A stretch of 63,816 nt of DNA from Nitrospirota bacterium (GTDB lineage Bacteria; Nitrospirota; Thermodesulfovibrionia; Thermodesulfovibrionales; SM23-35), in the NCBI GenBank assembly GCA_014859105.1, contig JACUUX010000010.1, positions 1-63,816 on the forward strand, written 5' to 3'. Positions within the stretch are counted from its first letter, which is position 1, and each line of letters starts with the position of its first letter. The position numbers and the translations under genes were made by a program. The notes under the pieces were generated by a model, which was given only the letters and a program-made list of their open reading frames with translations, did not search any database and was not told the DNA's origin. Of the stretch, positions 12,928 through 30,912 are shown in pieces.

Positions 12928-13004
<77 letters not shown>

Positions 13005-13077
13005 GGCAATTTTAAAGCTGAATTTGTAGTTGTAAGATTTTTTGCTTTATACTAAAAATAATTGCTATTAAAAAAAT

Positions 13078-13154
13078 GGTGAGTGTAGCTCAACGGTTAG
13101 AGCGCTGGACTGTGGCTCCAGGTGTTGGGGGTTCGAGTCCCCTCACTCACCCCA
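13078..13154 (+). tRNA. tRNA-His (GTG)
   Basis: Acceptor GTGAGTG/CACTCAC with an extra 5' G opposite discriminator C, as tRNA-His requires; anticodon loop CTGTGGC; CCA encoded. Confidence 0.95.
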
Positions 13155-13157
13155 GCT

Positions 13158-13178
13158 AAATTCTGCGATGCAGAATTT
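13158..13178. other. Perfect hairpin between tRNA genes
   Basis: AAATTCTGC-GAT-GCAGAATTT, a 9-bp perfect stem with a 3-nt loop just after tRNA-His. No U-run follows, so it could be a processing site rather than a classical terminator. Confidence 0.55.
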
Positions 13179-13269
13179 AGAGTTTGAAGTTGCAGGTTAT
13201 TAGTTATAGGTTGTCAATTCTTTTTTTACTAATAACTAATAACTATTCACTAATAACTGTTGATAAAGT

Positions 13270-13342
13270 GCGCCTGTAGCTCAGTGGATAGAGCATCGGC
13301 CTCCGGAGCCGAGGGTCGGAGGTTCGAATCCTCTCAGGCGCG
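13270..13342 (+). tRNA. tRNA-Arg (CCG)
   Basis: Acceptor GCGCCTG/CAGGCGC, anticodon loop CTCCGGA. The sequence after the discriminator G is CTT, so CCA is not encoded and must be added enzymatically, unlike in the three neighbouring tRNAs. Confidence 0.95.
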
Positions 13343-13353
13343 CTTGATGGTGT

Positions 13354-13429
<76 letters not shown>

Positions 13430-13519: not shown

Positions 13520-13855
13520 TTAATCTTGTTCATCATCTTTATTATTACCCCATATTGGGTCACTTCCAAATCTTTTTGCCCAAAACTCATCAGCAGAAAT
13601 ATACTTTTCAATCTCTTCCTTAGAAAAAGAAAATCGATAATGTTCACAATAATCCATTATTATTCTGTATGCATTGATTATTTCAATTGTTTTTTCTTTT
13701 CGGATATCTTCGTTTTCTTTGCATGAATCGGGGTGCCACTCTTTGAGCAATTCTCGATACCTATTTTTAATTTCTTTTACTGTTGCGAACTCATATAATC
13801 CAAGAGTTTTTCGTGCTTCTGTTATCTTTTCATACTTCCCCATAGGTATATCCAT
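13520..13855 (-). CDS. J-domain (DnaJ-like) protein
   Basis: 111 residues. An N-terminal J-domain runs about 10-75: LGLYEFATVKEIKNRYRELLKEWHPDS, with the HPD tripeptide that stimulates DnaK ATPase. The C-terminal tail (FWAKRFGSDPIW) is short and there is no G/F, zinc-finger or C-terminal substrate domain, so it is a small type III J-protein. It precedes the DsrE-like gene on the opposite side of the tRNA cluster; no functional link is evident. Confidence 0.8.
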   Translation of the reverse strand: MDIPMGKYEKITEARKTLGLYEFATVKEIKNRYRELLKEWHPDSCKENEDIRKEKTIEIINAYRIIMDYCEHYRFSFSKEEIEKYISADEFWAKRFGSDPIWGNNKDDEQD

Positions 13856-13966: not shown

Positions 13967-14278
13967 TTAAAATGTGATCACTTTATCAGCTTCTTTAACT
14001 GATTCATACAGGTCATTCATATAGCCAAGAGGACAAACTTTTGTTCCCACAAGACCGTGGGCTTTCATACAAACCCCTCAGACATACATATTCCCTTTAA
14101 ACTTGTCTATCTGTTCCTTTGCATTAAATTGCTCGTTACTGATTTGTTCAAAAAGGACTCCTTTCCCAAGCATAAAAACATTAACTTCATCCCCCTTTTC
14201 GACAGCCACATTCGCTAATCTCATGGCATTATAGACGGTTTCAGCATCATTTGTAGCAATAATGAAAAGAATATTCAT
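13967..14278 (-). CDS. DsrE-like sulfur-relay/redox protein, probable selenoprotein (UGA codon 67)
   Basis: 103 residues if UGA at 14078-14080 is read through. The N-terminal half (NILFIIATNDAETVYNAMRLANVAVEKGDEVNVFMLGKGV) is a DsrE-type fold. After the UGA the same frame continues GVCMKAHGLVGTKVCPLGYMNDLYESVKEADKVITF to a TAA, which is again DsrE-like. UGA occupies the first position of a C-x-x-C-like motif (YV-U-G-V-C), where I expect relatives to have Cys. A compact hairpin follows the UGA (see SECIS entry). DsrE-like selenoproteins are known from marine metagenomes. The alternative is a nonsense mutation. A good ribosome site (GGGAGG) precedes the ATG. Confidence 0.75.
14046..14077 (-). 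promoter_or_regulatory. Candidate bacterial SECIS element
   Basis: Starting 16 nt after the UGA on the minus strand, CCCAC-GGUCUU-GUGGG forms a 5-bp stem with a 6-nt loop that opens with GG followed by U. This resembles the AGGUCU loop of the E. coli fdhF SECIS recognised by SelB. Stem length, loop size and distance lie in the range for bacterial SECIS. Confidence 0.6.
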
Positions 14279-14280
14279 AC

Positions 14281-14512
14281 ATAGCCTCCCTTTTCAATTC
14301 ATAAATTTTTGTACTGAAATTGATTCTACTATAAAAACTATTTTTAACGGATCAATAGGAGTTCCAACTTATCGTTTTACTATTAATTCCTGCTATTTCT
14401 TTTGCTGACTCACATGACTTACTACATTTTAGTACATCTTCTATATTTGGTGCAGCAGGCGAGAGTATGCTACATTATAAAACTGAATTATGAACTATTG
14501 AAAGGAATCCCT
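14281..14512. other. Gap with unidentified open frame
   Basis: On the minus strand an open stretch reads APNIEDVLKCSKSCESAKEI and ends at a TGA. It looks like the C-terminal tail of an unidentified cysteine-containing protein. It has no start codon or recognisable family; probable gene debris. Confidence 0.3.
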
Positions 14513-14965
14513 GTGGAAATTTTAACAGCCCCTCGAATGGAGCGGTGTATCGGTTGTCATTCATGCTCATTGGCATGCGCGAGACTTGTCCACAAACGGC
14601 TTTCGTGGGACGAGGCAGGCATTCGCATACATACTTCAGGAGGACTATCGACTGGATTCGAGGCAAAGACATGCCTTGCCTGTAATCCGGCACCTTGTGC
14701 TGCGGTCTGTCCAACAGGTGCCTTCAGTCAGAGAAAAGGCGGAGGGGTGGTTGTGAGAAAACGTTTGTGTATCCGCTGCGGGGAGTGCGCAAAAGCTTGT
14801 CCTGTCGATGCAGTGTACCTTGATCCGTCGCAGGAGCCCTTTGTGTGTATTCACTGTGGCAGATGTGTTTCCTTCTGCCCGCACGACTGCCTTGAAATGG
14901 TCGCAAGCCCCGGGGGCCAAGTAAATGAGGGTGTTGAAAAGGAAGTGAAAAATGATACGGGATAA
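14513..14965 (+). CDS. 4Fe-4S ferredoxin subunit partnering the AOR-family oxidoreductase
   Basis: 150 residues from GTG 14513, which has AAGGAA upstream; the longer frame would add an unlikely hydrophobic leader. Cysteine clusters in order: CIGCHSCSLAC, CLACNPAPCAAVC, CIRCGECAKACP and CIHCGRCVSFCP, enough for four 4Fe-4S clusters, like HycB/YdhY/BamC-type electron-transfer proteins. It overlaps the AOR gene by 14 bp, so it probably feeds or takes electrons from that tungsten/molybdenum enzyme. Base composition is richer in G+C than its neighbours. Confidence 0.88.
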   Translation: MEILTAPRMERCIGCHSCSLACARLVHKRLSWDEAGIRIHTSGGLSTGFEAKTCLACNPAPCAAVCPTGAFSQRKGGGVVVRKRLCIRCGECAKACPVDAVYLDPSQEPFVCIHCGRCVSFCPHDCLEMVASPGGQVNEGVEKEVKNDTG

Positions 14966-16703
14966 CTTCAAGGTTCTGGTTATTGATCTTAGCACACGCA
15001 AAGGCGATGTAGTCAAGATGGAAGGAAGAAACACAGAAGCTGGAGGCAGCGGTCTGGCTGCGAAACTTTTTCAAAAGTATGGACATACTGATAAACCATG
15101 GGATGACCCACTGCAACCGCTGATTTTTACGATAGGCCCTCTCACAGGGTATTTCCCTCTCATGAGCAAAACTGTATATGCCTTCAAGTCACCCTACCAC
15201 AACCAGTACACTGAAAGTCATGCAGGGGGACGTTCTGCTCTTTCTCTGAGGTTTGCTGATTATGATGGGATTGTTATCACCGGGAAGGCATCGAGCCCTT
15301 CATGTATTTATGTCGGTTCCCGCCACCTTGAAGTCAAAGATGTACACTACCTATGGGGTACAGATATTCAGACATCAGGCAAGGTGCTAAGGAAAATGTT
15401 TAAGGGTGCTGGCCACAGAAGCATCCTCCGCATAGGGCCTGCAGGAGAAAACCGCTCTGCCATGGCATGTGTAAATGTGGATACATACCGCCACTTCGGA
15501 AGACTCGGCGGTGGCGGAGCAATGGGCGCAAAGAATCTTAAGGCAGTTGTAATTCAGGGAGATGTTTCTTTCGCTTCTCCACCTGATAAAAGGTATCCAA
15601 AACTGTTTCAGGAGGTGTACAAACTTCTTACTTCGACAGAAATGATGAGCAAGTACCATAACCTTGGTACAGCCGGGAACGTTGCTGTTCTCAATGACCT
15701 GAAAGCCCTCCCGTGGAGAAATCTGAAACAGACATCTGACGCAGAGGTCACGGGTATAACAGGTGAAAAGTTTGCTGAGGACGCGTTGCTGCGTAATGTC
15801 GCATGCTCCGGATGCCCCGTTGGGTGTATTCATATCGGATTTGTACGTGAGAAGTTCATGGAGGAGAATCATTATCTCTACCGTCAGGTGTCATATGACC
15901 ACGAACCGATTTTTGCGACTGGCTCCATGCTCGGGGTAACAAGCAATTTTGATGTTCTTGGCATCATAGACGCCGTGGAAAAAATGGGACTTGATGTGAT
16001 GTCTGCGGGTGGTGCATTAGCATGGGCGACAGAGGCATTCGAAAAAGGAATGATTACAGAATCGGATACACTTATTCCCCTTGCATTCGGAGACTCTGAA
16101 GCCTATAAGGTCGCTGTCAGACATCTGGGAATGGGCACAAACGAATTTTACCGGGCGCTGGGCCTCGGTACTCTGCAGGCTGCAAAGAGGTACGGCGGAG
16201 AGGACTTTGCCTGTGTACTCGGACAGGAGATGGCTGGATATGCAACAGGTGAAGTGTTCTTTACCTCTCAATCCCTGGGCTTCAGGCATTCTCACCTTGA
16301 TGCAGCCGGATATTCTTATGACCAGAGGAAAAATGAAAGGGATACAGGGAAGGTGGTCGAGTTCCTCATTCGGGACGAACAGGAGAGGGTTTTTCTTACC
16401 TCTATGGTCGCATGTCTTTTCGCCAGAGGTGTGTATACAAAAGAATTACTCGCTGAATGCCTGCGTTCAGTTGGATACGTAGAGTTAGCAGGAAATATCG
16501 AATCGGTATCGAATAATATTCAGAAATTACGCTGGCAGGTGCGTTTGAAAACCGGCTTTGACCCCTCTAAGGTACGAATCCCGAAACGGTTTTATGAAGT
16601 GAAAAACTGGCATGGCCCCATAGATAAAGATTTCTTCGATGAACTCAGGCGGAGATATCAGGAAGCCATCCTTCGCCTTGCTCAAGAAGACATAATTCCA
16701 TAA
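14952..16703 (+). CDS. Aldehyde:ferredoxin oxidoreductase family protein (tungsten/molybdopterin)
   Basis: 583 residues. The N-terminal pterin-binding region has HAGGRSALSLRFADYDGIVITG and GRLGGGGAMGAKNLKAVV. The 4Fe-4S ligands are C285-x2-C288-x3-C292 (ACSGCPVGCIH) and probably C488 (VACLF), in the positions expected for AOR. The enzyme oxidises aldehydes or reduces acids with ferredoxin. A YdhV/BamB-like role with the adjacent ferredoxin is also possible, and the substrate cannot be told from sequence. G+C content seems higher than flanking genes, so the pair may be acquired. Confidence 0.88.
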   Translation: MIRDNFKVLVIDLSTRKGDVVKMEGRNTEAGGSGLAAKLFQKYGHTDKPWDDPLQPLIFTIGPLTGYFPLMSKTVYAFKSPYHNQYTESHAGGRSALSLRFADYDGIVITGKASSPSCIYVGSRHLEVKDVHYLWGTDIQTSGKVLRKMFKGAGHRSILRIGPAGENRSAMACVNVDTYRHFGRLGGGGAMGAKNLKAVVIQGDVSFASPPDKRYPKLFQEVYKLLTSTEMMSKYHNLGTAGNVAVLNDLKALPWRNLKQTSDAEVTGITGEKFAEDALLRNVACSGCPVGCIHIGFVREKFMEENHYLYRQVSYDHEPIFATGSMLGVTSNFDVLGIIDAVEKMGLDVMSAGGALAWATEAFEKGMITESDTLIPLAFGDSEAYKVAVRHLGMGTNEFYRALGLGTLQAAKRYGGEDFACVLGQEMAGYATGEVFFTSQSLGFRHSHLDAAGYSYDQRKNERDTGKVVEFLIRDEQERVFLTSMVACLFARGVYTKELLAECLRSVGYVELAGNIESVSNNIQKLRWQVRLKTGFDPSKVRIPKRFYEVKNWHGPIDKDFFDELRRRYQEAILRLAQEDIIP

Positions 16704-30745: not shown

Positions 30746-30753
30746 TTACACAT

Positions 30754-30789
30754 AAAAAAACCTTCCCTCTCCTTTTGAGCGGAAGGTTT
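30754..30789 (-). terminator. Intrinsic attenuator terminator upstream of pyrR
   Basis: On the minus strand AAACCTTCC ... GGAAGGTTTTTTTA forms a 9-bp stem with a U-run just before pyrR. Its left arm can pair with the AAAAGGTAAAGGAGG region upstream, giving the alternative antiterminator. Confidence 0.8.
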
Positions 30790-30823
30790 CATATAATTTT
30801 TTGCAGCCCACGCTGCCTCCTTT

Positions 30824-30857
30824 ACCTTTTCAGCCTCACAGGGCTATTCTTAAAGGT
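30824..30857 (-). promoter_or_regulatory. PyrR-binding leader hairpin (anti-antiterminator)
   Basis: The minus strand reads CCTTTAAGAATAGCCCTGTG AGGCTGAAAAGG, close to the B. subtilis PyrR-binding loop (ARUCCNGNGAGGYU-type with flanking CCUUU/AAAGG). It places pyr operon control under uridine-nucleotide-dependent attenuation. Confidence 0.8.
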
Positions 30858-30912
30858 AATTTTATTAAAACACAAAAAATAAAATGCTGTCAAATTACCT
30901 GATAAATTACTC

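Follow-up and report, generated by a model that had tools for sequence, protein, structure and literature searches.

The window analysed here is a stretch of 63,816 nucleotides of contig JACUUX010000010.1 from a Nitrospirota bacterium, and its minus strand carries, at 13967..14278, a gene for a predicted DsrE-like selenoprotein that is conserved in 50+ genomes and runs from ATG to TAA with one UGA read through. The frame opens at the ATG at 14278, which is preceded by a Shine-Dalgarno-like GGGAGG (14285..14290, minus strand), reaches the UGA as codon 67 (14080-14078) and closes with the TAA at 13969-13967. When this UGA is translated as selenocysteine (Sec, U), the product has 103 residues, reads ...GNMYV-U-GVC-MKAHGLVGTKVCPLGYMNDLYESVKEADKVITF around the Sec position and ends in ...KVITF. 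A preliminary description of the sequence had traced this frame, and its start, its UGA and its continuation all lie where that description put them; the translation also bears out that the UGA stands for the first residue of a CGVC-like motif (U-G-V-C). The DsrE-like sequence that had been seen on both sides of the UGA is recognized by the PF02635 (DsrE) profile, which matches residues 1-103 with 42.7 bits (cut-off 22.7; profile positions 1-116).

None of the NCBIfam models searched covers the DsrE-like Sec group, so standard annotation would probably end this gene at the UGA. Membership of the YedF family was considered, since YedF proteins are SirA-DsrE fusions whose C-terminal DsrE domain has a CGxC motif like that of the window protein, and was rejected because the latter scores 16.7 bits with the YedF model TIGR03527 (cut-off 110) and has no N-terminal SirA domain. 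A separate YedF-like SirA-DsrE protein is encoded elsewhere in the same genome (contig C54), and this was the only other PF02635 match found there.

Transcribed in the same direction and beginning ~110 nt past the stop codon, the gene that follows encodes a small J-domain protein (13520..13855, minus strand; PF00226, 42 bits) and is a possible operon partner; J-domain genes also lie near the homologues at three other loci (L051, L128 and L134). Just beyond the J-domain gene are four tRNA genes on the plus strand (12928-13426). On the other side, divergent from the selenoprotein gene, a ferredoxin-type Fe-S protein and a protein of the aldehyde ferredoxin oxidoreductase family are encoded at 14402-16703, a pair that was not noticed beside the homologues. 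Farther along, the window contains a PyrR binding site (30752-30860), which at 55.8 bits barely exceeds the gathering score. No genes for Tso proteins, sulfide:quinone oxidoreductase (SQR) or DsrF/DsrH (TusC, TusB) were found adjacent to the selenoprotein gene within the window.

Decoding of the UGA

The genome to which the window belongs (3.16 Mb in 148 contigs) contains matches to selA (615 bits), selB (364 bits) and selD (381 bits), plus one tRNA-Sec above the cut-off (71.7 bits, anticodon TCA), so the search for the selenium machinery that the preliminary description had called for returned a set of selA, selB, selD and tRNA-Sec(UCA). The first two genes share one contig with the tRNA-Sec, which was absent from the immediate surroundings of selA and selB and lies ~23 kb from selB. 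Close to its N-terminus the selD frame has one in-frame TGA of its own (...RAAGUASK...); selD is a selenoprotein gene too (G000 C6:57115-58041, L009). When the homologue loci drawn from the genome_contigs set were traced to their genomes, selB was matched in all 13, above the cut-off in 12 and partially in the other. This gene is nevertheless near-universal in the sample (136 of 149 genomes, mostly of the window's order), so the presence of selB alone is not discriminating.

Other frames of this genome also contain in-frame TGA codons. One is thioredoxin-like (FDG-U-AGC; G000 C137:1105-1449, L147) and is probably another selenoprotein. A second encodes a rhodanese domain with the TGA at the active-site position (IIY-U-ASGVRS; G000 C16:8766-9041, L148), followed by a ferritin/rubrerythrin-like stretch, and is a probable Sec-rhodanese. 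Five of the related genomes (G004, G008, G012, G014 and G018) each carry two or more selB-like genes that exceed the cut-off.

Conservation of the UGA was followed across 149 relatives, most of them from the same order as the window's genome. Close homologues (75-99% identity) occur in seven genomes including the window's own, with TGA at codon 67 in every case and no sense codon; besides the window gene these comprise five full-length homologues and one that is interrupted further upstream and keeps the UGA, all from the same order. More distant homologues within the order have Cys at the UGA position (FACGTC, LACGKC and IIGCQKS in alignment A1), as the preliminary description had suggested an alignment with DsrE proteins might reveal. 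A scan of species genomes recovered additional homologues, some in records labelled Nitrospirota and others in 10 Desulfobacterota-type records, again with the UGA in all (loci L044-L046, whose contigs match L017, L016 and L018 in length and sequence and are apparently identical to them, were counted once). Among 395 Desulfobacterota-type genomes (the phylum of locus L053), 73 gave a match, at 82 places in total. An in-frame TGA was present at 69 of the 82, and at the same codon in the loci that were fetched; one or more such places occur in 65 of the 73 matching genomes. A TGA-containing DsrE gene is thus common in the sampled Desulfobacterota (65/395 genomes).

Substitution patterns provide a separate line of evidence. 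Between the window gene and its homologues, dS greatly exceeds dN on both sides of the UGA; in the comparison with L015, for example, dS and dN are 1.66 and 0.07 upstream and 1.11 and 0.04 downstream. Therefore, judged from these sequence comparisons, the stretch after the UGA is very probably translated.

These observations bear on two explanations that dispense with selenocysteine. One holds that the UGA is a real stop codon, a sequencing error or the mark of a decayed gene, and it is in keeping with the point at which standard annotation would end the frame. It is contradicted by recurrence of this UGA across phyla, in dozens of independent genomes, by purifying selection downstream of the codon, and by the presence of both Sec machinery and a SECIS-like element; we rejected it as having almost no chance of being right. 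An equally negligible chance attaches to the proposal that UGA is a sense codon throughout this genome, for which no support was found: TGA serves as an ordinary stop, ending 9 of the 43 open frames of at least 200 codons in the window, and both SelB and tRNA-Sec(UCA) are present. This proposal was rejected as well. The preliminary description had named in advance three findings that would speak against insertion of Sec at this codon, namely a genome lacking the selenium genes, homologues lacking Cys at the position, and a sense codon in neighbouring strains; what was found instead is a genome with the Sec machinery, homologues with Cys, and neighbouring genomes with UGA. We are accordingly confident that the product of the gene at 13967-14278 is a DsrE-fold selenoprotein, whose Sec would be specified by codon 67 (14078..14080, minus strand).

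A conserved hairpin downstream of the UGA

A SECIS-like stem-loop, CCCAC-GGUCUU-GUGGG, with a stem of 5 bp, occupies 14046..14061 on the minus strand. It begins 16 nt after the UGA, at the place given in the preliminary description, and its loop begins 21 nt after the UGA. Across 17 distinct sequences, 92.9% of the cells in the stem are paired, 12 of them as compensatory cells, a result reached in none of 500 shuffles, and sliding the hairpin to other offsets lowers pairing to 19-53%. RNAalifold, run unprompted, predicted four of the five stem pairs. In 5000 resamplings of synonymous codons, pairing averaged 62.5 +/- 3.3% with a maximum of 76%, and perfect stems, which occur in 12 of the 17 real sequences, averaged 0.85 (maximum 5); because the observed pairing is so far above this null, coding alone is insufficient to account for the hairpin. 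Among 23 Cys homologues, the corresponding positions are 36% paired and form no perfect stem. The strongest change within the stem, from CAC/GUG to CGU/ACG in Desulfobulbaceae-type sequences, keeps the stem while altering the encoded residues from His to Arg and from Val to Thr.

All the hairpin sequences have GG as the first two nucleotides of the loop. The preliminary description had compared it to the GG-U loop of the fdhF SECIS; what the sequences show is a hairpin that is conserved and covaries and whose GG is invariant, and the likeness to fdhF itself is one of resemblance. When a 61-nt segment covering the UGA and the sequence downstream is folded freely, a competing hairpin is preferred and stability is not significant (z -0.95), but leaving out its first 12 nt (the UGA plus 9 nt), the stretch that the ribosome would cover, makes the SECIS-like hairpin the minimum-energy fold. 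The claim for a SECIS element is one that rests on comparative evidence, not on folding energy. Such comparison supports a model in which SelB, bound at the hairpin (14061-14046), would deliver Sec-tRNA-Sec to the UGA and the ribosome would insert Sec at codon 67 to yield the 103-residue protein.

Relatives of the protein and neighbours of their genes

Selenoproteins of this type have been described before. DsrE-like UxxC selenoproteins of PF02635 were listed from the Sargasso Sea in 2005 (PMC1088965) and one from Desulfovibrio vulgaris in 2006 (PMC1794560); the GOS survey of 2008 distinguished two forms, DsrE 1 and DsrE 2 (PMC2398784), and reviews of 2022 and 2026 include them as well (PMC9312934; PMC13188914). 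As the D. vulgaris entry shows, the family is not confined to the marine metagenomes mentioned in the preliminary description. These listings, as such, assign the proteins no function (PMC1088965; PMC1794560; PMC2398784; PMC9312934; PMC13188914). To the extent that the published listings permit comparison, the window protein shares with the listed ones the PF02635 domain, Sec in a UxxC motif, Cys homologues and a downstream SECIS, and differs in coming from a Nitrospirota-type metagenome-assembled genome. The family is thus already known, and the window gene is a well-supported additional DsrE-like UxxC selenoprotein.

Among 93 proteins placed on a tree, the window protein belongs to a group of 46, all of them Sec proteins from Nitrospirota and Desulfobacterota; this clade has no Cys member and is supported at 100/100, with the Nitrospirota-type sequences nested among the Desulfobacterota ones. 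Six changes of the Sec/Cys label are required on the tree, and at least three of these are forced by well-supported branches; the deeper forks are weak because the alignment has only 105 columns. Across the wider family U is constant and the second Cys is variable, the motif being UGVC or UGKC and also UGKL, UGKS or UKKA; within the window's clade, every member sampled has C70. A further cysteine, Cys82, is invariant in alignment A1 and absent from the UGKC/UGKL group. Remote DsrE-like matches at 33% identity, each with one internal TGA, were seen in two genomes of the window's order (G072 C38:22814-23107 and G089 C46:25034-25324) and may represent a further Sec subfamily.

The genes adjoining these homologues were surveyed at 76 loci, some of which are short, so a missing neighbour in those says little. 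ArsR-type regulators similar to TsoR were the most frequent of the neighbours noted (25 loci), followed by TsoA (15), an SQR-like flavoprotein (7), TsoC (3), a DUF5714 (MbdU-like) protein (3) and TsoY (2), and sulfite-exporter-like genes lie near two loci. In Desulfobacterota the gene often sits beside an ArsR-type regulator plus TsoA, or beside the SQR-like flavoprotein. These Desulfobacterota homologues often adjoin genes resembling those for TsoA and TsoR of the three-selenoprotein Tso operon (TsoA/B/C, TsoR, TsoX, TsoY), whereas there are no Tso genes next to the window gene and no TsoB match in its genome exceeds the cut-off. One locus (L056) presents a Cys-DsrE, a Sec-DsrE and an SQR-like gene in succession, and two Cys homologues (L073, L075) are accompanied by ArsR, SQR-like, DsrF-like and DsrH-like genes, the last two assigned by sequence resemblance. 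At L107 and L125 a Cys-DsrE (LACGTC) and a divergent Sec-DsrE without the second Cys (U-K-K-A) stand in tandem, and at L122 and L125 tandem Cys- and Sec-DsrE genes are found beside ArsR, TsoA-like and DUF5714 genes.

Possible functions of the selenocysteine

The sulfur-relay fold proposed in the preliminary description is supported by an AlphaFold2 model (mean pLDDT 78; 52 around residues 71-80, just after the Sec), against which structures of the DsrE fold rank first: 3mc3 (Z 12.0), YchN 1jx7 (Z 11.6), TusBCD 2d1p (Z 10.6) and DsrEFH 2hy5 (Z 10.3), with the first unrelated entry at 7.0. A profile alignment, whose match is only 28 bits, places U67 on Cys78 and C70 on Cys81 of the CxxC motif of Escherichia coli YchN (1JX7). 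In Allochromatium vinosum DsrEFH, sulfur binds Cys78 of DsrE and then passes to DsrC, and Cys78 of TusD is essential in E. coli (PMC3397948). From the predicted fold and the YchN alignment we infer that U67 is the equivalent of this DsrE/TusD cysteine. The window protein thus shares the fold of YchN and DsrE/TusD, but it has Sec in place of Cys and its gene has no adjacent genes for DsrF/DsrH or TusB/TusC partners.

The selenol would therefore stand where proteins of the DsrE fold keep their reactive cysteine, and, like Cys78 of DsrE/TusD, it may carry or reduce sulfane sulfur. It is possible that the selenolate takes over such sulfur in the form of a Se-S intermediate, with a polysulfide, a persulfide or an SQR-type enzyme as donor, after which the sulfur would be handed on or released; resolution of the Se-S bond could fall to Cys70 and Cys82, which lie nearby. 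On the basis of fold and gene neighbours, a role of the window protein as such a carrier, with Sec handling sulfane sulfur or polysulfide, is a plausible reading that we hold tentatively, at somewhat under even chances.

Two other functions have to be weighed against sulfur transfer. The protein could be a thiol-disulfide redox enzyme that uses U67 and C70 as a UxxC pair, a role that is conceivable though we would not call it probable. The motif itself, the placement of the family among thiol-redox families (PMC1088965), retention of C70 in all sampled members of the window's clade and the presence of a CxxC in YchN all fit this role. Loss of the second Cys from the UGKL, UGKS and UKKA subfamilies, in which U stays, does not, and the known DsrE/TusD mechanism is single-cysteine chemistry (PMC3397948). 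Metal or organometal chemistry, which has been proposed for some selenoprotein clusters, provides the other candidate; here an ArsR-type regulator would exert control and the selenol would bind a soft metal or metalloid. We consider this unlikely. The ArsR-type and TsoA neighbours (25 and 15 of the 76 loci), the matches to the TsoR, TsoC and TsoY models and the DUF5714/MbdU-like neighbour at three loci speak for it; regulators of the ArsR type sense sulfur species too, however (BigR is among the weaker matches), the SQR-like and DsrF/H-like partners are indicative of sulfur, and no such cluster lies beside the window gene.

What this analysis adds to the earlier listings is the covariation of the SECIS-like hairpin with its null test, the size of the Sec clade, its Nitrospirota-type members, the constancy of Sec as opposed to the variable second Cys, and the Tso, SQR and J-domain neighbourhood. 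Extended to the family, sulfur transfer would make Sec-DsrE a sulfane-sulfur carrier (Se-S-H) whose partners, in a sulfur relay of sulfate reducers and related anaerobes, are the Tso selenoproteins and an SQR-type enzyme, and for which the second Cys is dispensable; this broader proposal is speculative and, taken whole, rather doubtful. A conserved Sec at a sulfur-carrying position, together with the SQR-like and Tso neighbours of the homologues, nevertheless provides a direct, testable hypothesis, that in these bacteria selenium may carry sulfur.
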